From Xanthobacteraceae bacterium (GTDB lineage Bacteria > Pseudomonadota > Alphaproteobacteria > Rhizobiales > Xanthobacteraceae), in the NCBI GenBank assembly GCA_023954195.1, contig JAMLIK010000002.1, positions 744,001-808,000 of the forward strand: 64,000 nt of DNA, in the 5' to 3' direction. The position numbers and the translations under genes were made by a program. The notes under the pieces are model-generated. The model worked only from the letters and a program-made list of their open reading frames with translations. It was not told the DNA's origin and did no database searches. Shown one piece after another: positions 54,494 through 64,000 of the stretch (positions within the stretch are counted from its first letter, which is position 1; each line of letters starts with the position of its first letter).

Positions 54494-54570
54494 GCGCTCG
54501 TAGCTCAGCTGGATAGAGCATCGGATTTCGATTCCGAGGGCCGGGAGTTCGAATCTCTCCGAGCGCGCCA
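54494..54570 (+). tRNA. tRNA-Arg, anticodon UCG
   Basis: 77 bases. Acceptor arms GCGCTCG and CGAGCGC, D-arm GCTC...GAGC, anticodon stem TCGGA/TCCGA with loop TTTCGAT (anticodon TCG), T-arm GGGAG TTCGAAT CTCTC, discriminator G and encoded CCA. It reads CGA codons. The integrase lies 166 bases downstream in the same direction, so the 3' end of this gene is the likely attachment site of the element. Confidence 0.95.
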
Positions 54571-54614
54571 CTAAGCTGTTCGTCAGCGTCCGCCCTTGTT
54601 CGTTCATGAAAGAC

Positions 54615-54640
54615 AAGCCCTTGCAACGCAGGGGCTTTTT
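54615..54640 (+). terminator. terminator behind tRNA-Arg
   Basis: AAGCCCTTG (54615-54623), loop CAACG and CAGGGGCTT (54629-54637, one G-T pair), running into TTTTT. It ends the tRNA transcript 45 bases after the CCA. Confidence 0.8.
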
Positions 54641-54678
54641 GCGTTTTCAGTGGTTTTACGTATTCGTGCGAACACTCA

Positions 54679-54713
54679 TACTGCCGCAGTATTGACGTGA
54701 GGTTTGACGTGAG
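54679..54713. promoter_or_regulatory. operator-like repeats before the integrase gene
   Basis: A palindrome TACTGCCGCAGTA (54679-54691) is followed directly by two direct copies of TTGACGTGAG (54692-54701 and 54704-54713), 12 bases apart. They lie 24 bases before the integrase ATG and could bind the integrase arm domain or the AlpA-like protein. Confidence 0.5.
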
Positions 54714-54736
54714 TTCGGAACACCCTTGGAGGGATC

Positions 54737-55876
54737 ATGGGAAATCTGACGGCGCTACAGGTCAAAAACGCGCAACCGGGGACGAAGCTGTTAGACGGCG
54801 ACGGACTACGCCTGGACGTCGACAAACAAGGCAATGCGGCATGGAATTTTCGCTACACGTCGCCGGTGAATCGGCGCGAGCGACTCATGGGGCTGGGCTC
54901 GATCAAGGTCGTTTCGCTGGCGGATGCGCGCGAATTGGCAGCCGACATGCGGAAGCAAATCCGCAGCGGCATCGATCCGTTAGAGGCCAAGGCGGCAGCT
55001 AAGGCGGCAATCAAGGTCGAGGAACGCAAGGCGACCACGTTCCGGCAATACGCCAGCGGCTACATCGACGCGCACGAATCGGCGTGGCGAAGCCCGATCG
55101 TTCGGCGATCGTGGCGGAGCACAATGCGGGACCATGTATTTCCGGTCATCGGCGACATGGCAGCGGGGGACGTTGACGTCGAGGCCGTGTTAAAAGTCCT
55201 GCGGCCGATATGGGACGCGAAAAAAGAAACCGCCCGATCGGTGCGGAGCCGAATCGAAAACATCCTATCGGCCGCGCGCGTCGAAGGGTTGCGGACGGGA
55301 GAAAATCCCGCCGTCTGGCGCGGCAATCTCGAATTCTTGCTGGCGCGGCACAAGCGCAAGGCGGATGTGAAACATCATGCGGCCCTACCATGGAGGGAAA
55401 TGCCGGCTTTCTGGCGAAGCCTTGCCGCTGACACGTCGGACGCGGCGCGCATGTTGCGGTGGATCATCACGACCGCGGCTCGCTACGGCGAGGCTGCACG
55501 CATGGGAAAAGGCGAAATCGTCAGCGATCTGTGGACGGTGCCGGGCGCGCGGATGAAAGGCGGTAAAGAGCACTGTGTTCCGCTCACCAAGTTGGCGCTC
55601 GCGCAGTTACCATTTCGCCCCGTCAGCGACGTCGCATTGACGAAATGCATTCGGCGGAACACCGATCTACCAGCATCAACTCATGGATTCCGGAGTTGTT
55701 TTAGGGATTGGTGCGGCGATGCGACTGACTATCCGCGCGAGGTCGCAGAGGCGGCATTGGCTCACGCTGTTGGTAGCGAAGTTGAACAGGCGTATCGGCG
55801 TGGCAGCGCGTTGGCAAAACGGCGAAAACTCATGGACGAATGGTCCCGCTTTCTGGCGAACACGCCACCGTCTTGA
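54737..55876 (+). CDS. tyrosine-recombinase integrase
   Basis: 379 residues; GGAGGG lies 4 bases before the ATG. An N-terminal arm-binding domain of P4/DUF4102 type (LTALQVKNAQPGTKLLDGDG) is followed by the core-binding domain (about 98-190) and the catalytic domain, with Arg249 (TAARYGEA), His316-Arg319 (THGFRS), His343 (LAHAVG) and the nucleophile Tyr353 (EQAYRR). It integrates and, with an excision factor, excises the element at the tRNA. Confidence 0.93.
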   Translation: MGNLTALQVKNAQPGTKLLDGDGLRLDVDKQGNAAWNFRYTSPVNRRERLMGLGSIKVVSLADARELAADMRKQIRSGIDPLEAKAAAKAAIKVEERKATTFRQYASGYIDAHESAWRSPIVRRSWRSTMRDHVFPVIGDMAAGDVDVEAVLKVLRPIWDAKKETARSVRSRIENILSAARVEGLRTGENPAVWRGNLEFLLARHKRKADVKHHAALPWREMPAFWRSLAADTSDAARMLRWIITTAARYGEAARMGKGEIVSDLWTVPGARMKGGKEHCVPLTKLALAQLPFRPVSDVALTKCIRRNTDLPASTHGFRSCFRDWCGDATDYPREVAEAALAHAVGSEVEQAYRRGSALAKRRKLMDEWSRFLANTPPS

Positions 55877-55964
55877 CTTTGGGCGGCATTAGTAATAGGA
55901 TGTGTTTCTCTTGAGGATTGCGACTGGCGGACGCCGTTGCGATCCCTTTTTTGTATCTGTCGCA

Positions 55965-56003
55965 CCCTGCCTGTCTCTTGATTGAGATCGGCGGGGATTT
56001 TTT
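55965..56003 (+). terminator. hairpin with T6 behind the integrase, before the AlpA-like gene
   Basis: CCCTGCC (55965-55971) pairs with GGCGGGG (55990-55996), an inner stem GTCTC/GAGAT extends it, and TTTTTT follows (55998-56003). It can end integrase transcription. Its tail GGCGGGGATTTTTTG nearly repeats the one at 59729-59742. Confidence 0.75.
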
Positions 56004-56026
56004 GTTTCAAGATGGGAGAAAACTAA

Positions 56027-56212
56027 ATGCAGTCCTTTTCCATTTCCAAATTCTGCGAACGGCAGTCGATCGGCCGGACGCTTTATTACGAGCTGCGGAA
56101 GCGGGGCAAAACGCCACGCACGTTTAGAGTTGGCAGCGTCGAGCGGATATCCGAGGAAGCCGAACGCGAGTGGGTGAAGGCGCGCGAAGCGGAAAGCGAG
56201 GCCGCAGCATGA
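56027..56212 (+). CDS. AlpA/excisionase-like helix-turn-helix protein
   Basis: 61 residues. SISKFCERQSIGRTLYYELR is a typical winged-helix start in which the second helix (SIGRTLYYELRK) reads DNA, followed by FRVGSVERISEEAEREW. AlpA-type proteins turn on or direct excision of P4-like elements. Shine-Dalgarno GGGAG lies before the ATG. Its stop overlaps the next gene as ATGA. Confidence 0.75.
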   Translation: MQSFSISKFCERQSIGRTLYYELRKRGKTPRTFRVGSVERISEEAEREWVKAREAESEAAA

Positions 56213-56580
56213 CCGGACTCGCGTTCTATGCCGAACACCCCGAACGCCTGCCGCCGCTGCGCATCGCGCCGTACCGTGATCCAATGGGGTGGTTCTTAAA
56301 GCAATCGCCGACGGCATCCGACCCGCGCGTCGCAGCGGACTATATGTGGTTTCGCGATCACCCGGATCGTCGCTTCAGGATGCGCAACACCTCCCGCATC
56401 CGCGACGGTCACTGGCATGTGTCGATCACAGATCGATACCATCTCAATCGAACGCTTAACTTCAGCGTGGACGTTACTGATCGCCGCATCCCGCCGCCTG
56501 CATTCTGGCAGGACGAAATCATCATCGAAGTACTGCGCGACATCGGCCGAACGCTTCCGGAGCCTGAACATGCCGGATGA
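56209..56580 (+). CDS. element-encoded protein of unknown function
   Basis: 123 residues from ATG 56209, coupled to the AlpA-like gene by a 4-base overlap. The sequence is rich in Arg and aromatic residues (ADYMWFRDHPDRRFRMRN; WHVSITDRYHLNRTL) and has no motif I recognise. It looks soluble. Its position with AlpA suggests an early-region role. Confidence 0.6.
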   Translation: MTGLAFYAEHPERLPPLRIAPYRDPMGWFLKQSPTASDPRVAADYMWFRDHPDRRFRMRNTSRIRDGHWHVSITDRYHLNRTLNFSVDVTDRRIPPPAFWQDEIIIEVLRDIGRTLPEPEHAG

Positions 56581-56743
56581 AACTGTCACCATCCGCCGGG
56601 CCGATCTTGAACGTCTGGCGTTCGCGATTGCTGAAACAAAAGCCGCGCGCGCCAAGGCCGACAACGCCTATGGCACGTTCCGCCGTCAGCTTGCCGGACT
56701 CGAACATCTGATCGCGTCGATCCGCGTGCAGCAGGCGCAATAG
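56570..56743 (+). CDS. short coiled protein of unknown function
   Basis: 57 residues, starting in an 11-base overlap with the previous gene. The protein is almost wholly helical (RRADLERLAFAIAETKAARA), with a heptad-like pattern. Its function is unknown; the overlap supports it being real. Confidence 0.55.
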   Translation: MPDETVTIRRADLERLAFAIAETKAARAKADNAYGTFRRQLAGLEHLIASIRVQQAQ

Positions 56744-56755
56744 CGTAAAAGAAAA

Positions 56756-56776
56756 CCCCGCCGTGCGAGGGCGGGG
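56756..56776 (-). terminator. hairpin before the primase gene, oriented for the minus strand
   Basis: CCCCGCC, a 7-base loop and GGCGGGG form a 7-bp stem. The T-run (TTTTCTTTT) is on the minus strand only. On the plus strand it would act as an attenuator at most. No minus-strand gene reads into it here. Confidence 0.5.
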
Positions 56777-56808
56777 CTCTGTAGCGGCGATGGAGGCCGC
56801 ATTAAAGT

Positions 56809-59175
56809 ATGACAGACAACATATCATATGGCGTCACCGACACAAGCGTTTTTAACGCTGCGGTACATATGGCCCAGGCAGGCTGGATGATCTTCCCCGC
56901 ACCGCCGGGCGAAAAGAAATCGTACAAATCAATCGAATTTAGCGGCACACTATGGGGCGCCACTCGCGATCCGGACATTGTGCGCGACGACTTCACGCGT
57001 TGGCCGCAGGCTAGAATTGGCTTGCTGACCGGTCCGGACAATAATTGCTTCGTTCTCGACGTCGATACGGAGGAAGGCCACGGCGTCGACGGATTCGCGT
57101 CGCTCGCATTGCTTGAAACGGCACACGGTTCATTACCGCCGACCCTGCAAGCTGAAAGTCCGAGTGGGTCAATCCACTACTATTTTCGGCACCCTGGCAT
57201 TCACGTCAGATCGCGAAAGCTGAAAGGTTCGGCTGGAATTGACGTCAAGGGCAATGGCGGCATGATCATCGCACCGCCGAGTGCGAACCCTGAGGGCGGC
57301 GCCTATCGCTGGAGAAACGCGCTTCCCATCGCTGACGCGCCGTCGTGGTTGCTCGACATGATCGTGTCAACCGAGCCCGACCGTGCGACAGCGACCGACG
57401 TTGCGGCGATTACAGAATATTCGATCGATGAAATTCGATGGTGGATTGATCGCAATCGATCCGAATTCGACGAGATCACGCAAGACCAAGGCGAATGGGT
57501 ATTCTTCGGCAAAGCGCTTAAGCTGCACGCACCAGGCGACGACGGCCTAGACCTGTTATTGTCACTGACTTATGACGGCGCCGAGTTGATCACGAAGCGC
57601 TGGTGGAACGAATTCAGCGCGGACTACAAAGCCGGAATGCGAACGTGGGCGCACTACGTCTCAACGGACAATGTCACAAAAATCGATTGGATGTTTCGGC
57701 ATGTCATCGGCTGTCCGCGTCCGGCCCGCGACGGGCAGAACATAGAGATCGCGCCGGAAATCCTTAAGCGGCATCGGGCCGAGCGCGATCAGTATCTCGC
57801 GGCGCAGATAGGGCCGCTACCGGAGCATCCCGAACTGACTGCGCCGCAGGCCGACGCGCTTGTGCAGTTCTGGGCGCATCTTCCGTCGGGCAAGATTATT
57901 CACGAAGCATCGCGGGCGTTATGGGCATCCGGCAGTTTCGATAAGCATGTCGGGCGCGTCAAAGACGCGATGAAACTTGAAGGGCCGGGGGCGCTGGCGT
58001 CGACGTGGCTTTCGCAACATCGCGCGGTGCAGTCTATCGGCTGGGAACCGGCCGAACCAATGATCATTGAAGGCCGCGTCCTGACCGAGGGCGGATGGAT
58101 GTATGCACCGGGCTGTCGGACGTTCAATCTATACGCTCCGAGCAATTTGATCCCCGCGAAAGGCGACGTCTCGCTCTGGTTGGATCATCTGCGCTTCATC
58201 TATCCTGCGGAAGCGGAGCACGTCATCGCATGGTTTGCGCATCGCGTTCAGCGTCCAGGGGACAAGATCAACCACGGACTGGTGTTCATAGGCAGCCCCG
58301 GCATCGGCAAAGACACGGCGATCGAGCCGGTGGTGGCGGCGATCGGATCGCACAACTTCAAAAGCATCACTGCCGCGAAGTTCTTCAATTCGGATTTCAA
58401 TGGCTATCTCAAATCGGTGATGCTCCGGATCGACGAAGTTCACGATCTCGGTGGCGAGTCGAAATACGCATTTCACGACAGAACCAAGCCAATCCTGGCC
58501 GCTCCGCCGATGATGCACGACATTAACGAGAAGCATGTTCCCCACCACGCCGCGCGGAATGTCTGCGGCGTGATCCTGACCAGCAATCACGCGGACGCGC
58601 TGTTTCTCGATCGCGAAGATCGTCGCCACTTCGTCTGCATCTCGGATCGTCGGAAGGACGAATTTCCAAATGGCTATTTTGAACGTCTATATCGCTGGTT
58701 CGACGCCGGGGGAAACGAAGCCGTCGCATACTACCTGGCCCATTATGACCTGACCGCATTCGACGCCAAGGCGCCACCGCCAAAAACCGCGGGATGGCAC
58801 GCCGTCGTCGCGGCGGGGTTGGCACCGGAGAGCGGCGATCTGACCGATGCGATCGCGGATCTCGGAACGCCACCGGCGGTGACGATTGCGATGATCAAGG
58901 CGAAAGCGCCGATGCGGCTGTTGGCGATGTTCGAAGATGCAAAGTTTCGGAAGAACATTCCGCGGCGGTTTTCTGAATGCGGCTACGTCGCGGTCGTGAA
59001 CCCCGACGCTGTCGAGAGCGGTGGCCGTTGGCGCCTGCCGGGCGGGAAGGCGGCAATCTACGCTCGCCAGGATTTGTCAGAACCGGAACGAGTGAGCGCG
59101 GCGCGACGTCTGGTCGCGACCGGAAACCTATCGCCATCGACGCCAAGGGGACAATTGCCACCGCTGCCGTATTGA
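56809..59175 (+). CDS. bifunctional primase-polymerase/D5-type helicase
   Basis: 788 residues. An N-terminal prim-pol domain (about 10-185: PAPPGEKKSYKS, LTGPDNNCFVLDVDTEEGHG, GIDVKGNGGMIIAPPS) carries the acidic metal-binding residues. A PriCT-like middle part follows (about 200-300: DEIRWWIDRNRSEFDEITQD). The C-terminal SF3-like ATPase has Walker A GSPGIGKDT (495-503) and RIDEVHDLGGE as Walker B. It would start and drive replication of the excised element. No separate replication genes are near. Confidence 0.88.
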   Translation: MTDNISYGVTDTSVFNAAVHMAQAGWMIFPAPPGEKKSYKSIEFSGTLWGATRDPDIVRDDFTRWPQARIGLLTGPDNNCFVLDVDTEEGHGVDGFASLALLETAHGSLPPTLQAESPSGSIHYYFRHPGIHVRSRKLKGSAGIDVKGNGGMIIAPPSANPEGGAYRWRNALPIADAPSWLLDMIVSTEPDRATATDVAAITEYSIDEIRWWIDRNRSEFDEITQDQGEWVFFGKALKLHAPGDDGLDLLLSLTYDGAELITKRWWNEFSADYKAGMRTWAHYVSTDNVTKIDWMFRHVIGCPRPARDGQNIEIAPEILKRHRAERDQYLAAQIGPLPEHPELTAPQADALVQFWAHLPSGKIIHEASRALWASGSFDKHVGRVKDAMKLEGPGALASTWLSQHRAVQSIGWEPAEPMIIEGRVLTEGGWMYAPGCRTFNLYAPSNLIPAKGDVSLWLDHLRFIYPAEAEHVIAWFAHRVQRPGDKINHGLVFIGSPGIGKDTAIEPVVAAIGSHNFKSITAAKFFNSDFNGYLKSVMLRIDEVHDLGGESKYAFHDRTKPILAAPPMMHDINEKHVPHHAARNVCGVILTSNHADALFLDREDRRHFVCISDRRKDEFPNGYFERLYRWFDAGGNEAVAYYLAHYDLTAFDAKAPPPKTAGWHAVVAAGLAPESGDLTDAIADLGTPPAVTIAMIKAKAPMRLLAMFEDAKFRKNIPRRFSECGYVAVVNPDAVESGGRWRLPGGKAAIYARQDLSEPERVSAARRLVATGNLSPSTPRGQLPPLPY

Positions 59176-59189
59176 TCCGCTGGGCGCGT

Positions 59190-59298
59190 GGGCGCTATGG
59201 GCGCGGTTTTTCTACTGTTGTCAAAATCTCTCTCTATCTCTCTATAGAACGGACAGAAGCAAAAATGAATACAATGGAAAACCGCGCCCATAGCGCCC
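59190..59298. promoter_or_regulatory. perfect 21-bp inverted repeat spanning a gene start
   Basis: The arm 59190-59210 (GGGCGCTATGGGCGCGG plus TTTT) is matched exactly by its complement at 59278-59298. The 67 bases between hold a CT-rich tract (tctctctctatctctctat) and the start codon at 59265. The left arm is extended by a further GGGCGC unit (59182-59187). RNA from here could fold the start region into a long hairpin, or the arms may be protein-binding sites. Confidence 0.7.
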
Positions 59299-59651
59299 GA
59301 CCTGCCCAGCCGCTAATTCAACTCATAAAAATACTCCGCACGTATCCCGACCTGACGATCGAAGGCGTCGGTGGTGATCGCTACGGCGCGGCGCGCGCCA
59401 ACCTGCTTGGCCGTTACGATCAGTTCGGCGAAGTGCTTGCGTGGCTGGCGACGCCGTCGGCGCGGAAGTCGATCCGACGCAATGGCGGTTATAGTTATGG
59501 CATCAAGCACGATGCCGAGAAGGCGATCGGCGGGCACCTGCCGAACGGCGTCCTGATCGCGGCCGCACTGGCAGCCAGCCACCGCATCCGCCGAATTGCC
59601 GGCTCTGTGAACTGCCGGATTTGTCAACGCGCCGCCACTCCCAGAATGTAA
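59265..59651 (+). CDS. element-encoded protein of unknown function
   Basis: 128 residues from ATG 59265. The middle part (LIQLIKILRTYPDLTIEG, then RYGAARANLLGRYDQFGE) is helical, and the end has two Cys (NCRICQRA). No recognised family. Codons 5-11 form the right arm of the perfect inverted repeat, so translation may be controlled by RNA folding. Confidence 0.6.
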   Translation: MNTMENRAHSARPAQPLIQLIKILRTYPDLTIEGVGGDRYGAARANLLGRYDQFGEVLAWLATPSARKSIRRNGGYSYGIKHDAEKAIGGHLPNGVLIAAALAASHRIRRIAGSVNCRICQRAATPRM

Positions 59652-59704
59652 TTTTCTGTTAGGAGCTTTCGTTTACACTTCGTCTCCAAGTTGATGTGTG
59701 TCAA

Positions 59705-59741
59705 CCCGCTCGCGGTATGAAAGCCGCCGGCGGGATTTTTT
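59705..59741 (+). terminator. hairpin with T6 before the portal gene
   Basis: CCCGC (59705-59709) pairs with GCGGG (59730-59734) around an inner GCGG/CCGC stem, then A and TTTTTT. It separates the early (replication) and late (head) genes. It lies only 16 bases before the portal start codon. Confidence 0.65.
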
Positions 59742-59757
59742 GCGTTTCCGGAGAACC

Positions 59758-60948
59758 ATGGGCATCTGGCCCTTCAACCGTACCGTCGAAAAATCTCTCG
59801 CCGCTCCCGATGAAGCGACCTTTGCGATCCTTTCCGGTGAAACTTACGGTCCGGTCAATCCGCTTTCCGATCCGACCGTCGTCGCAGCCGTCACCACGAT
59901 CAGCACCGCGGCCTCGACTCTCGACCTGCACCTGGTAAAGCGCGACGACACGTCCGCCGACGTGTCGCATCCTGCTCTCGATCTGCTCCGCGGCCATGTA
60001 AACGACTGGACGTCCGGCTCTGACCTAATCCGCGATTTGATCGCGCAAGCGCTGACTCATGACGTTGGCGGGATCGCGTGGGTGAATAAATCCGCCGACG
60101 GTCGCCCGCTTGAAATTCTTCGGTACAACGCCGGCCGCATCGCTTGCACCTACGCGGGCGACGGATCGGGTCGGCCGAGTTACACCGTCAACGGTCGCAG
60201 CGTTCCGGCGAGCGACATCATTCACATTCGCGGCCCGTTTTCTCGGTGCCCGATCAGCTTGTGCTATCCGACCGTATCCGCGTCGATCGCGATGACGCGT
60301 TACATCGAGTCGCTGTTCAGGCGCATGGCCCGGCCCGGTGGCCTTGTCGAAGTGCCGAGCGGCGCCGGTGAGAAGGCGATTCAAAACATGATCGCCGGTT
60401 GGGAAGCGGCTTATGGCGGCGCGGACAGTGCCGGCGGTACTGCGTTTCTCTTCGATGGTGCGACTTTCAAGCAGATGGCGCTTACCACGACGGATGCGCA
60501 GTTCGTTGAAAACAAGCGCGCCTTGCTTGAAGACATTGCGCGAGCCTTCAACATTTCGAGCGTTATGCTCGGTGATCTTGTCAAGTCATCGTACAGCTCG
60601 GCGTGGCAGAAGTATCGCGAATTCCTCAGCATCACCCTGATGCCTTGGCTCAAGGCGCTTGAAGACGCATTCAATCGTGCGCTGCTCAACGACGATGAAC
60701 GCGCCAAGTATACGTTCAAGTTTGACGTTGACGATCTCACGCGGGTCGATCTCGAAAAGCGCGCCACGGCGATTTCGAGTCTCGTTTCGTCGCGCGTCAT
60801 CAATCCGAACGAAGCGCGCACCTGGCTCGATGCCGGGCTCGCTCCGTATGACGGCGGCAATGAATTCGCCAACCCAAACACTGGCGCCAGCCAACCCGGT
60901 GCGCCGCCGCCGCCCAAACCTGAACCCGACGGGGATAGCAATGAATGA
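59758..60948 (+). CDS. phage portal protein, HK97 type
   Basis: 396 residues from ATG 59758 (GGAG 4 bases upstream). The family pattern is clear: SDPTVVAAVTTISTAASTL, then HPALDLLRGHVNDWTSG, DIIHIRGPF, and EDIARAFNISSVMLGD, ending in a Pro-rich tail. The portal is the dodecameric ring through which DNA enters the head. The next gene starts 8 bases before its stop. Confidence 0.93.
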   Translation: MGIWPFNRTVEKSLAAPDEATFAILSGETYGPVNPLSDPTVVAAVTTISTAASTLDLHLVKRDDTSADVSHPALDLLRGHVNDWTSGSDLIRDLIAQALTHDVGGIAWVNKSADGRPLEILRYNAGRIACTYAGDGSGRPSYTVNGRSVPASDIIHIRGPFSRCPISLCYPTVSASIAMTRYIESLFRRMARPGGLVEVPSGAGEKAIQNMIAGWEAAYGGADSAGGTAFLFDGATFKQMALTTTDAQFVENKRALLEDIARAFNISSVMLGDLVKSSYSSAWQKYREFLSITLMPWLKALEDAFNRALLNDDERAKYTFKFDVDDLTRVDLEKRATAISSLVSSRVINPNEARTWLDAGLAPYDGGNEFANPNTGASQPGAPPPPKPEPDGDSNE

Positions 60949-61330
60949 TCTTGTCGCGTGCGATGATCTTGTCGCGTATCAGGACCGCGGTGCTGATTGC
61001 GTCATTACGCATCCAGTCACCGGCGAGACGATGGATATCGTTTTCGTCGTGGCCGGTCCCGACAGTGATACGCAGCGCCGCGCGCGTCTCGCCACCACTG
61101 ACGCCTTGATGGCCTATACCGGCCGTCCGCCGGCGGAAGAGCAGGAACGCCTTGCGATCGAACAACTCGCTCGCTGTGTCGTCGACTGGCGCGTCAAGCA
61201 GGACGGCGTCGAAGTGCCGTTCTCGTTCTCCGCGGTCGTGCGCTTGCTCCGCAAATTCCGGTTCATTCGCGAGCAAGTCGACGCATTCGCGGCATCGTAT
61301 GAACCGTATCTCCCGAAGGTGAGTCAATGA
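60941..61330 (+). CDS. small phage protein between portal and protease-capsid genes
   Basis: 129 residues, overlapping the portal end by 8 bases and the protease start by ATGA. The N-terminus is encoded by a near-perfect DNA repeat (gatcttgtcgcgt twice, giving DLVACDDLVAYQ). The C-terminal half (CVVDWRVKQDGVEVPFSFSA) could be a head or tail assembly factor, but I cannot name it. Confidence 0.6.
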   Translation: MNDLVACDDLVAYQDRGADCVITHPVTGETMDIVFVVAGPDSDTQRRARLATTDALMAYTGRPPAEEQERLAIEQLARCVVDWRVKQDGVEVPFSFSAVVRLLRKFRFIREQVDAFAASYEPYLPKVSQ

Positions 61331-62862
61331 AAGAACAGACGATTGTCACGAAAGCGCGCGTTGGCATTTCAGACGCCGGCGAAATTGAGGGCGTCGCATG
61401 GCTGTTCGGTTTACCCGATAGCGTCGGCGACGTAATTCAGCCGGGCGCGATCAGCTTCGCAAAGTCCGTCCCGATGGTGCGCGAGCACGACGAGGGCGCG
61501 GTTGTCGGCGTGTGGAACGGATTCACCGAGGATAGCGACAAGCTGACCGTCAAGGGCGCGATGTTTGTGGATGGTATCGCGCCGGCGCGCAAGGCCCGCG
61601 ACGAAGTGAAGGCCGGAAAGGCAACTGGTCTGTCGCTGAAATTTTCATCGGACGACTACGAAAAGAATGAGCACGGCGGCACGACGTTCAAGAAAGCCAT
61701 CGTGTCGGAAATTTCACTCTGCCGTCTGCCGGTTCATCCCGGTGCGCGGATCACTGCGGTCAAATCGAAAGGTACTAAACATATGGACGACAATAATCAG
61801 GTTGACGTTGCCGAGCAGATCAAAACGGAGGCGAAGGCGTTCGTCGATCCGATCATTGCTCGCATGGACAAGCTCGAAGCCAAGATGAATCGCCCGGCGG
61901 GCGGCGACGGCGCGCAGGAGCCGACCGAGCAGCGCAAGGCGTTCGGTGAATACCTGCGCAAGGGCGACCGAGCCAGTGCGGACGTGCTCAAGGCGCTCGT
62001 CGTCTCGTCCGATCCGCAGGGCGGCTATCTCGCGCCGACCGAGATGAGCGCCGAATTCATCCGCGACCTTGTCGAGTATTCGCCGATCCGCGGCCTCGCC
62101 ACCGTGCGCAGCACGTCGGCGCCGGCTGTTTCCTATCCGAAGCGCATCGGCGCCACGAATGCGAAGTGGAAGGGCGAGGGCCAGGCGCAGGAGGGCAGCG
62201 AACCGTCCTTCGGTCAGGTCGAGATTCCGGCACGGGAGATCAACACGTTCGTTGATATCAGCAACCAGCTTCTTGCTGATAGCGCCGGCGTTGCGGAGGC
62301 GGAAGTCCGGATGGCACTGGCGGAGGATTTCGGCCTGAAGGAAGGCACGTCGTTCCTCAAGGGAAGCGGCCCGCTTGAGCCCGAAGGCATTCTCAACGCG
62401 GCCGGCGTCACCGTCATTCCGACGGGTAATGCGTCGACGCTTGGCACCAATCCGGCCGATCTGCTGATCGACGTCATGTATGACCTACCGGCTGGCTATC
62501 GCGGTCGCGGCTCGTGGCTGATGAACGGCAAGACGCTGGCGGCGGCGCGAAAGTGGAAAGACGGGACCACCGGAACGTATCTGTGGCAGCCGGCCTATGT
62601 CGCAGGCCAGCCGGAAACCATTCTCGGCCGTCCGGTGATCGAGTGTCCTGACATGGACGACATCGGCGCCGGTGCCACGCCGATCGTATTCGGTGACATC
62701 GCGACGGGCTATCGCATCGTCGATCGCATCGGCCTGTCGATCCTCGTCAATCCGTACCTGCTCGCAACCAATGGCGTTACCCGCATTCACGCGACCCGTC
62801 GCGTCGGCGGCGCGGTGGTGCAGGCAGCGGCGCTCCGTAAGGTGGTCTGCAAGACGGCCTGA
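61327..62862 (+). CDS. prohead protease fused to HK97-type major capsid protein
   Basis: 511 residues in one frame. Residues 1-~150 are the U35 prohead protease, with His54 (MVREHDEG), Ser103 (ATGLSLKF) and Glu128 (VSEIS). A delta/scaffold-like helical stretch (about 155-200: EQIKTEAKAFVDPIIARMDK) leads to the capsid (about 205-511: SSDPQGGYLAPTEMSAEFI, KGSGPLEPEGIL, GYRIVDRIG). An internal ATG at 61783 with AAAGG 10 bases ahead could also make the capsid alone. Confidence 0.93.
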   Translation: MKEQTIVTKARVGISDAGEIEGVAWLFGLPDSVGDVIQPGAISFAKSVPMVREHDEGAVVGVWNGFTEDSDKLTVKGAMFVDGIAPARKARDEVKAGKATGLSLKFSSDDYEKNEHGGTTFKKAIVSEISLCRLPVHPGARITAVKSKGTKHMDDNNQVDVAEQIKTEAKAFVDPIIARMDKLEAKMNRPAGGDGAQEPTEQRKAFGEYLRKGDRASADVLKALVVSSDPQGGYLAPTEMSAEFIRDLVEYSPIRGLATVRSTSAPAVSYPKRIGATNAKWKGEGQAQEGSEPSFGQVEIPAREINTFVDISNQLLADSAGVAEAEVRMALAEDFGLKEGTSFLKGSGPLEPEGILNAAGVTVIPTGNASTLGTNPADLLIDVMYDLPAGYRGRGSWLMNGKTLAAARKWKDGTTGTYLWQPAYVAGQPETILGRPVIECPDMDDIGAGATPIVFGDIATGYRIVDRIGLSILVNPYLLATNGVTRIHATRRVGGAVVQAAALRKVVCKTA

Positions 62863-62925
62863 TCGTCCTGAGCGGGCCGGTTCGTCCGGCCCCTCATCGT
62901 CCTTTCCCGATTTGGAGAATTCAAC

Positions 62926-63312
62926 ATGCGAGATATCGCTTCTAACATCGGCGCCGTCCTGGCGCTTTCGCCGGCGGTGCAGGCCGCGACCATCAAGGGC
63001 AACGCCGTCGACACGGCGGGCTTTGGAAGCGTGGCGTTTGTCGTCAATACCGGCGCGGTTGCTGGCGCGGGCGACTACACTGCGAAGGTGCAGGAGTCCG
63101 ACACGACGACGGATGGCGACTTCACCGACGTTGCTGCCGGTGATCTTGTCGGCACGCTTCCGGCGACGCTCACCGCCAACGGCTCGTTCAAGCAGGGTTA
63201 CATCGGCCACAAGCGCTATGTCCGCGTCGTCGTGACGAAGAACAGCGGCACTTCGATTGCGGCCGGCGCCGTTGCCGTGCTTGGCGGCGCGCACAGTCGT
63301 CCCGTCGCATAA
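62926..63312 (+). CDS. phage head-associated protein
   Basis: 128 residues. The beta-rich core (AGFGSVAFVVNTGAVAGAGD, YTAKVQESDTTTDGDFTDVA, HKRYVRVVVTKNSG) is typical of small proteins encoded right behind HK97 capsid genes, often decoration or stabilising proteins. The precise role is not proven. Shine-Dalgarno GGAG is present before the ATG. Confidence 0.7.
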   Translation: MRDIASNIGAVLALSPAVQAATIKGNAVDTAGFGSVAFVVNTGAVAGAGDYTAKVQESDTTTDGDFTDVAAGDLVGTLPATLTANGSFKQGYIGHKRYVRVVVTKNSGTSIAAGAVAVLGGAHSRPVA

Positions 63313-63522
63313 CTCTTCGCCCGCGCATTCTGACGACGACGCGGCCAGTCGAACAACGATCAGCATCCTCCCGGCGGGCAAGTATTCAGTAGCGGGTCAA
63401 GGATGCGAGGCCGAGCCAGCAGTTGGGTTCCTGTTCTCGACGAAGCTGGCGGCGTCACGCATGGGGTGACGTAACGGTGGCGGGCCCTTCACAGGGTCCG
63501 CGACCTACAACCGAGAGGCATC
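63313..63522. other. 210-base gap in the head gene cluster
   Basis: No convincing gene. Two small hairpins are seen: CGTCAC...GTGACG near 63454-63472, and GGGCCC...GGGTCC near 63483-63500. They may separate the capsid transcript from the cold-shock-like gene. Confidence 0.4.
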
Positions 63523-63750
63523 ATGCAGCAGTACGGCACCATTCGCTATTTCGATCCTGCCACCGGTTACGGCCTGATCATCCCGGCCGACGGATCGCGC
63601 GACCTGCATTTCCGTGACGTTGACATCGGTACTGGATCGCAGCCCGTGCGCGTCGGTCATCCGGTCACCTTTCATCCCGTCACTGGCAAGCGTGCTGCGG
63701 CGGATCACGCCGCGAACGTCAGGACAGTCGATGCCGACGCGTGCGCCTAG
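63523..63750 (+). CDS. cold-shock-domain-like small protein
   Basis: 75 residues. YGTIRYFDPATGYGLIIPAD resembles the first strands and RNP1 of cold-shock proteins, and DLHFRDVDI resembles RNP2. The usual aromatics are partly replaced (GYGLI for GFGFI), so nucleic-acid binding is likely but altered. GAGAGG precedes the ATG. It overlaps the HNH gene by 20 bases. Confidence 0.72.
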   Translation: MQQYGTIRYFDPATGYGLIIPADGSRDLHFRDVDIGTGSQPVRVGHPVTFHPVTGKRAAADHAANVRTVDADACA

Positions 63751-64000
63751 AGTTTGTTCCTGTGGCCGCATCGTTGCCTATGGCGTGCAGTGCTCCTGTC
63801 AGGTGAGGCAGAAGGCAGAGGCGGACAAGCGCCGGCCGTCAGCGCGGCAGCGCGGCTATGACACAGCGTTCCAGCGCGAGGCGTCCGCGTTCCTGAAGGA
63901 TCATCCGACCTGTACGTGCGGCGCGCCTGCCGTGCTGGTCCGTCACCGCATCAGCATCCGCGCGCGTCCTGACCTGCGGATGGCGAAATCGAACTGGTTG
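63731..64000 (+). CDS. HNH endonuclease (3' part outside window)
   Basis: 90 codons to the end of the window, still open. The N-terminus has cysteine pairs (RVCSCGRIVA, QCSCQ), then RPSARQRGYDTAFQREASAF, LKDHPTCTCGAPAVLV and RHRIS, the usual entry into an HNH fold. Such nucleases are encoded next to terminase genes and help DNA packaging in HK97-like phages. Terminase genes are therefore expected beyond 64 kb. Confidence 0.78.
   Translation, partial: MPTRAPRVCSCGRIVAYGVQCSCQVRQKAEADKRRPSARQRGYDTAFQREASAFLKDHPTCTCGAPAVLVRHRISIRARPDLRMAKSNWL

Follow-up and report, generated by a model that had tools for sequence, protein, structure and literature searches.

Boundaries and gene content of the element

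The window analysed here, a stretch of 64,000 nucleotides from the genome assembly of Xanthobacteraceae bacterium (G000:C2:744001-808000), ends inside an integrated element of 16,979 bp which we regard as a candidate capsid-forming phage satellite. The in-window part of the element covers 54571..64000 (+ strand), while the remainder, read past the window edge on locus L007 (C2:797001-817000; window coordinate = L007 coordinate + 53000), reaches window-equivalent position 71549 (G000:C2:815549). The attachment gene is a tRNA-Arg(TCG) gene placed by ARAGORN at 54494..54570 on the + strand, and the start at 54571 given in the first-pass annotation of the window is exact. The last 14 bases of the tRNA gene (54557-54570, + strand) form the core of attL. 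The direct repeat of the tRNA 3' end, which the first-pass annotation had proposed as the mark of attR, was recovered by a repeat search as the same 14 bases (CTCCGAGCGCGCCA) at L007 18536-18549, that is window-equivalent 71536-71549; by simple arithmetic, an exact 14-bp match within 20 kb has a chance of the order of 1e-4. Host genes resume past attR, where a molybdopterin oxidoreductase gene (named from its translation alone) adjoins.

The genes of the element lie on the + strand unless stated otherwise. The tyrosine integrase gene (54737..55876; PF22022 E 1e-23, PF13356 E 1e-20, phrog_1 E 9e-33) is followed by a gene for a small helix-turn-helix protein, weakly called as AlpA-like (56027..56212; phrog_66 E 0.093, no Pfam match) and 51% identical over 57 aa to the product of a gene adjoining the integrase of the related locus L095, and by two small genes without a family match in PHROG and Pfam searches (56209..56580 and 56570..56743). 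A prim-pol primase fused to a helicase-like domain (56809..59175; PF09250 E 8e-37, DUF5906 E 8e-9) and a gene with a phrog_9576 match only (59274..59651; E 0.012) precede the portal gene (59758..60948; PF04860 E 8e-74). Between portal and protease lies TACx, a tail-assembly-chaperone-like gene (60941..61330; phrog_313 E 1e-11) which occupies the same position in many relatives. The prohead protease (S78) is fused to the HK97-type major capsid protein (61327..62862; PF04586 E 2e-10, PF05065 E 1e-78), and the next gene encodes a likely jelly-roll capsid cement or decoration protein (62926..63312; phrog_5707 E 2e-35, function unknown). A cold-shock-domain-like gene (63523..63750; PF00313 E 5e-6, just under the family cut-off) sits within the head block immediately upstream of an HNH endonuclease gene, which crosses the window edge (63731 to window-equivalent 64066, L007 10731-11066; phrog_144 E 4e-12). 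The order from integrase through the small AlpA-like gene, small genes, prim-pol/helicase, portal, protease-capsid and head protein to HNH, as read in the first-pass annotation, is upheld by the Pfam and PHROG profiles, with the AlpA call weak; what it omitted are TACx, between portal and protease, and the cold-shock-like gene.

The terminases and connectors for which the next kilobases had been singled out are present past the window. Ad1 (L007 11142-11474; PF05135 E 5e-17), Neck1 (L007 11464-11889; PF04883 E 6e-10), the tail terminator (L007 11886-12311; PF11367 E 6e-21) and the head closure protein (L007 12308-12619; PF05521 E 4e-24) are followed by TerS (L007 12616-13011; PF05119 E 5e-27) and TerL (L007 13011-14624; PF20441 E 2e-31). 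The block ends with an intact tape measure protein (TMP) of 719 aa (L007 14628-16787; PF20155 E 9e-51, PF09718 E 7e-8) and a TAC_18 chaperone (L007 16784-17158; PF23812 E 7e-14). Behind it lie an unnamed gene (L007 17230-17481), an excisionase-like gene (L007 17534-17935; phrog_1840 E 5e-6), a small repressor-like gene on the - strand (L007 17949-18182; phrog_7950 E 1e-4) and a second unnamed gene (L007 18288-18461). All structural frames of the element are intact.

The assignment of the phrog_5707 protein as a capsid cement or decoration protein is likely on the basis of its predicted structure. The AlphaFold2 (AF2) model is all-beta, with a predicted local distance difference score (pLDDT) of 85.5, and has weak Foldseek matches to the phage capsid-associated chains 3j4u_H and 8cjz_A; the best Foldseek E-value belongs to an unrelated archaeal protease chain, and the fold match is only suggestive. 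The protein was also considered as a hidden tail tube and rejected in this role, as the relative L043 has both the cement protein and a tube and the model is all-beta and weakly similar to capsid-associated chains.

Tail genes and comparison with phages and satellites

The first-pass annotation had envisaged a head block without tail genes, and this part falls, as the element carries a tape measure protein, the TAC_18 chaperone and a tail terminator. It had also named tail and lysis genes within a 35-45 kb element as the sign of an ordinary prophage. The element measures 16,979 bp, and tube, tip and lysis genes were sought in it without success. Searches of its called genes with PHROG and with Pfam (the latter on the first 20 of the 24) gave no match to a family of major tail proteins, of distal tail, hub or fibre proteins, or of holins, endolysins or spanins. 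A tail tube profile built from the relatives gave a best E of 3.6 on the frames of at least 30 aa, and the sequences of three phage tubes and of five tip and lysis proteins of Mesorhizobium phage vB_MseS-P1 (distal tail, hub, peptidase, megatron and lysozyme), each searched singly against all frames of the element, gave a best E of 0.27. The tail-tube family PF16461 has no match anywhere in the genome, and the element ends 1.4 kb past its last structural gene.

An ordinary HK97-type prophage is rejected on the basis of the size of the element, the missing modules and the gene order, with the terminase after the neck genes. In vB_MseS-P1 the order is HNH-TerS-TerL-portal-protease-capsid-connectors-tube-TAC-TMP-distal tail-hub-peptidase-megatron-fibres-lysozyme, and the earlier remark that an ordinary phage has HNH and terminase before the portal is true of this phage, the one compared. 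In the element, TerS-TerL lie downstream of the connectors and TMP-TAC_18 end the block. The tape measures nearest in phage records come from Mesorhizobium, Rhizobium and Labrenzia phages, with a query coverage below 80% in all. Those of vB_MseS-P1 and Labrenzia phage vB_LagS-V1 are, by their coordinates, near-equal in length to that of the element (724 and 729 aa), whereas the phages themselves differ from it in their genomes of about 40 kb, the terminase before the portal and annotated tube and lysis genes, to which vB_MseS-P1 adds distal tail, hub and fibres. A search of TerL against 50,697 phage records gave 1772 matches, all below 60% identity, the best of the 15 matches listed reaching 34%; in bacterial genomes the identity rises to 66% in a sample of the order and to 91% in the closest relatives.

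Phage-inducible chromosomal islands (PICIs) and P4-like satellites have no capsid genes of their own, a feature not shared by the element with its capsid and portal. Capsid-forming PICIs (cf-PICIs) are reportedly the subject of Alqurainy et al. 2023. According to the account in PMC10690885, cf-PICIs encode capsid, protease, portal, connectors, HNH and terminases and rely on helper tails, and their average size is given as 14 kb (PMC10803314). A plasmid-like element called a cf-PICI by SatelliteFinder likewise has capsid, portal, protease, adaptor, closure, HNH and terminases, as outlined in PMC13230959. Like these cf-PICIs, as far as the accounts go, the element is integrative, with an integrase and att repeats, has the complete set of capsid, protease, portal, connectors, HNH, TerS and TerL, and no tube or tip gene was found in it here; its dependence on helper tail parts would be a further likeness. 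The regulators of cf-PICIs, an AlpA activator or Stl-type repressor, have possible counterparts in the weak AlpA-like call and in the repressor-like gene on the opposite strand. Unlike the cf-PICIs of these accounts, the element has tape measure, TAC and terminator genes and terminases downstream of the head and neck genes, it is 17 kb long against the 14 kb average (PMC10803314), and it resides in an alphaproteobacterium, a group without mention in the passage of PMC10803314 on cf-PICI hosts. The element would work like a cf-PICI yet lacks the feature of helper tails only, given its tape measure, TAC_18 and tail terminator, and is filed here as a variant and not as a member. The Mulch and Flayer satellites of Streptomyces, in the parts of PMC10690885 that describe them, also have their own head and packaging genes, and MiniFlayer carries a tail fibre; unlike the element they have no primase and use virulent helpers, and the term tape measure is absent from the main text of that paper. 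No satellite with its own tape measure was described in the literature looked through, which comprised titles and abstract openings with few subscription journals.

The bounds of 16,979 bp, the complete head and packaging genes and the lack of any recognised tube, tip or lysis gene support the first-pass proposal of a capsid-forming phage satellite at tRNA-Arg. We consider it probable that the element is an integrative satellite of this kind which supplies head, neck and tail ruler, and borrows tube, tip and lysis functions.

A family of related elements

The element is not a one-off, as three further head-encoding elements are found in the same genome and 228 related TerL loci in genome contigs. 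The three head-only elements of the genome lie at G000:C1 about 339985-355908 (L057; tRNA-Ser, 17-bp repeat), G000:C1 about 388479-406458 (L319/L320; tRNA-Asn, 45-bp repeat) and G000:C5 about 140892-158284 (L063/L064; tRNA-Gly, 46-bp repeat), and the four elements measure 16,979, 15,907, 17,935 and 17,347 bp. The head-only elements (compared as L057, L058 and C5) resemble the element in their tRNA att sites, in their sizes of 15.9-17.9 kb and in having portal, protease, capsid, Ad1-like, HNH, TerS and TerL genes in the same order, but genes for neck, terminator, tape measure and chaperones were not detected in them. Such relatives would show the cf-PICI feature of no tail genes. The same genome holds a prophage region (G000:C4 about 282-300 kb, L059/L060) with a tube, a 724-aa tape measure and a tip set like that of a gene transfer agent (GTA), the names being partly from translations. 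This complete-looking siphophage tail adjoins IS21-like transposase genes (also named from translations), and its tube has a close homologue in L174 (2524-3462, E 8e-179). This C4 prophage and a GTA-like cluster on C1 come into question as helpers, neither being claimed as proven; the tape measure of the C4 prophage is 24% identical to that of the element over 213 aa (724 vs 719 aa).

Beyond this genome, TerL has matches at E 1e-40 in 61 of the 397 genomes of the order, and the capsid at E 1e-50 in 61 of the 198 genomes of the family (both counts include the own genome). Many of the capsid matches lie near 36-40% identity and probably represent GTA capsids. Searched with a TerL profile, named genome contigs yielded 228 related loci and IMG/VR 494, from which the best 80 of each were read. 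In total 202 loci were pooled and reduced to 155 at 98% TerL identity, leaving 110 full windows after exclusion of 45 cut ones; the calls of tube, neck, tape measure and tip genes in these relatives rest on profiles built in this analysis. The names of the 80 genome-contig loci are almost all alphaproteobacterial, among them Rhizobium, Brucella, Bradyrhizobium, Bartonella, Xanthobacter, Rhodopseudomonas, Roseovarius and Sphingobium, with a few unplaced Proteobacteria and one metagenome-assembled genome labelled Cytophagaceae. The block order is largely common to the relatives and not uniform, Neck1 lying downstream of TerL in L090, L103, L151 and L192, for example. In L050 and L125 the att repeat is in a tmRNA gene instead of a tRNA gene. 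Two tube-profile matches each, mostly adjacent, were seen in L122, L123, L130, L164, L176, L177, L187 and L188, and in L130 both correspond to phrog_158 (E 7e-27 and 3e-12).

A tape measure is present in 86 of the 110 full windows under a wider position rule, adopted because the first rule missed it in L164 and L173; the calls in L102 and L195, where it begins 1.1-1.6 kb past TerL, are less sure. The tube was found by profile in 65 windows, 21 have a tape measure without a detected tube, and 24 have neither, which suggests that tail genes are dispensable in the family. In the clade of the element itself (TACx/TAC_18; 57 full windows), 48 windows have tube and tape measure without the genes tip1 and tip2, three have neck and tape measure without a tube (this element, L094 and L095), five have tip genes and one (L198) has a tape measure without detected head genes. 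As 48 of the 57 have a tube and only three combine neck and tape measure without one, loss of the tube probably took place in the small lineage containing this element. An alternative use of the retained genes is that tape measure and chaperones are interference factors which titrate the tube and tip of the helper, the satellite head being placed on wholly helper-made tails. The 21 windows with a tape measure and no detected tube, next to the 24 with neither, fit this idea; the element's own terminator and Neck1 are kept as well, however, and better fit a structural role, which makes interference unlikely.

The size of the elements is far less variable than their content. An att pair enclosing TerL was identified in 54 of the 110 full windows, 38 from a first search limited to spans of 9-21 kb in windows of 14.5-26 kb, from which longer elements could escape, and 16 from a further 20 loci without a pair at first and with genome sequence at hand, examined in 40-kb windows without such an upper limit. 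The 16 later pairs span 16.6 to 18.5 kb. Overall the median att-to-att span is 17.4 kb and 53 of the 54 fall within 15-19 kb, while the pair of L127 (11,890 bp, 15-bp repeat) is possibly spurious. Head-only elements (n=14; median 16.7 kb) lack neck and tail genes that amount, by the coordinates of this element, to about 3.7 kb, yet are only slightly shorter than tail-bearing ones (n=39; medians 17.4 and 17.6 kb; Mann-Whitney p 0.013). This near-constant size despite changing content fits the prediction of packaging in an own capsid. It also bears on a GTA-like or domesticated capsid island that would package host DNA. The genome does hold a separate GTA-like cluster (C1 about 985-1000 kb, named from gene order and a capsid match), but integrase, att repeats, prim-pol, near-constant unit size and own terminases point to a self-packaging mobile element and leave such an island extremely improbable.

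Tip genes, selection and mode of life

Several observations weigh against a satellite that borrows tube, tip and lysis functions. Neither particles of the element nor its excision nor a helper have been seen. The empty site was not found and the flanks are not conserved in seven other genomes of the genus, which the joined flanks matched at tRNA genes only. In the first-pass call of an AlpA-like gene, the presence of a small gene at that place stands, and its identity as AlpA is unconfirmed. A minor-tail (gpM) profile matched an antisense frame within the integrase gene (E 4e-4), which we consider a spurious chance match, and the tube profile built here misses the annotated tubes of two real phages, so that a tube may go unrecognised.

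Among the relatives, tip1, tip2 and endolysin genes occur in five of the 110 full windows, and tip, fibre-like and endolysin genes lie between the tape measure and TAC_18 in 11 of the 155 loci, cut ones counted. They are seen in L141-L144, L146, L258, L259, L261, L262, L267, L268, L271 and L276, the cut loci showing part of the set. The tip1, tip2, fibre-like and endolysin genes of L141-L146 recur in eight IMG/VR loci, partly on cut contigs, and have no homologue in the other loci from the order, the family or the genome contigs. A distal tail homologue lies between tape measure and TAC_18 in at least eight further full windows (L133, L140, L145, L171, L179, L198, L206 and L220), and loci with this homologue are without a recognised hub and lysis set. 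Five more candidates (L128, L135, L229, L249 and L269) were not counted, as they came from a mixed-seed profile whose seed L128 is unlike a distal tail protein. Parts of the tip, and perhaps autonomy, thus exist in this lineage. In all 202 loci, homologues of the vB_MseS-P1 distal tail protein were found in 13, its megatron matched in L223 only (opposite strand, contig end), and its hub, peptidase and lysozyme nowhere. A tip scan of 89 open reading frames (86 of the 138 downstream of the tape measure in relatives without tip1/tip2, and three controls from the L141 tip region) gave no tail-tip family among the 25 of 28 Pfam families listed, a result of little weight since the L141 controls were also unmatched. 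In the PHROG scan (25 of 30 families listed) a distal tail family was matched by seven of the 89 frames, next to single matches to "tail protein" and to "virion structural protein", neither of them traced, and one CHAP match in relatives was likewise not traced. A match to "endolysin" was discarded, since it is located inside the tape measure frames of L047 and L051; these tape measures (L047 4184-6859, L051 4333-6840) have transglycosylase- or lysozyme-like stretches (phrog_4067, phrog_1259). Going by these sequence matches, most family elements appear to be without a recognised hub, fibre and lysis set, and some keep a tip part.

These findings bear most directly on the alternative that the element is a minimal, autonomous phage, its tube, tip and lysis proteins having diverged beyond recognition. 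The clade with tip, fibre-like and endolysin genes and the windows with a distal tail gene speak for it, as do the five small genes of the element without assignment. It is nevertheless unlikely, as just 75 bp separate HNH from Ad1 in the element, where the tube usually sits in the clade, the approximately 1.4 kb past TAC_18 are too short for a hub, and the hub, peptidase and lysozyme of vB_MseS-P1 are unmatched in the pooled loci.

The elements L094 and L095, two copies in one genome (G452) whose TerL is 91% identical to that of this element and which are also without a detected tube gene, allow selection to be estimated. Between them, the ratio of nonsynonymous to synonymous substitution rates (dN/dS) is 0.050 for the tape measure (668 codons) and 0.047 for TAC_18 (124 codons), which suggests that both genes are maintained by purifying selection in these sister elements without a detected tube gene. 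Between this element and L094/L095, where a synonymous divergence (dS) of 0.83-1.76 makes the ratios rough, dN/dS is 0.05-0.20 for head and packaging genes (HNH being saturated), 0.35-0.38 for TAC_18 and 0.30-0.42 for the tape measure. The latter, at about 51% identity, is thus more relaxed than its neighbours, a further point against our interpretation, though faster divergence than that of the head would be expected if tape measure and TAC_18 track changing helpers. L094 and L095 lie about 159 kb apart and have a common 6.7-kb block at 94% DNA identity, with different integrase and replication genes. Both carry, between head closure and TerS, a 349-aa glycine-rich gene (L094 6175-7224, L095 6155-7204; phrog_863 "tail fiber assembly" E 5e-11) that is absent from this element. 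A decayed prophage remnant, which would agree with the loss of the clade's usual tube gene and with the lack of a demonstrated empty site or activity, is very unlikely in view of the intact structural frames, a gene order unlike that of ordinary phages, the low dN/dS of head and packaging genes and the similar layout and narrow size held by relatives.

For the satellite interpretation, which we continue to prefer, the sequence provides att repeats at tRNA-Arg, an own integrase, an excisionase-like gene and a prim-pol replication protein, together with a full gene set for a small head filled with DNA (portal, protease-capsid, probable cement, HNH, TerS and TerL), neck and tail terminator. Upon induction or helper infection, the element would be excised and replicated, and the unit genome of about 17 kb packaged in its own small capsid. 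As tube, tip, fibre and lysis genes are not recognisable in it, these parts would be taken from a helper siphophage, on which the element is inferred to depend. Less certainly, its own tape measure and chaperones may replace those of the helper, so that helper tube subunits would polymerise on a satellite ruler matched to the satellite terminator and neck, and the resulting chimeric tails would join satellite heads and not helper heads.

The relation between members of the family was examined in trees. On a TerL tree of 171 rows (FastTree) the tip1/tip2 elements form one clade, which includes one cut locus and is nested within elements that lack tip genes, and six labels (cut loci and phage group included) need at least 38 changes. 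A tree of 64 rows (IQ-TREE quick) nests the same clade with a support of 99, the three surrounding backbone forks having 99, 99 and 98. On the portal tree (six tip rows) the clade also needs one change, at a support of just 27%, the nesting being a result of the TerL trees. The C5 element sits on a very long branch, its TerL being 26% identical to that of this element, and its placement is unsure. The nesting of the tip and lysis members inside members without them on the TerL trees is the reason to consider that a satellite lineage may have become a phage. We tentatively put forward, as a possibility that we hold to be somewhat more doubtful than not, that the family is a class of satellites which build the head, the neck and mostly the tail shaft (tube and ruler) and obtain only the missing parts from a helper. 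These would be the larger part of the tip and the lysis functions in many, the tube too in this element and the whole tail in head-only members. Modules would be exchanged within the limit of about 17.5 kb set by the capsid, and one lineage may have gained tip and lysis genes and become a phage. The distal tail homologues lowered our confidence in this class somewhat and raised that in an autonomous phage marginally.

The capsid-forming satellites known so far reportedly take over complete tails, and a tail ruler with chaperones and without a tube would differ from this. If true, such a ruler would let the satellite control to which head borrowed tails are attached, and could account for the choice of helper. 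The gain of tip and lysis genes by a satellite would, if true, be the reverse of the usual story of decay. The family spans head-only, shaft-bearing, and tip and lysis members at a near-constant size where measurable, which makes the question of satellites from phages versus phages from satellites directly testable, in hosts that include genera such as Rhizobium and Bradyrhizobium and many Rhodobacterales.

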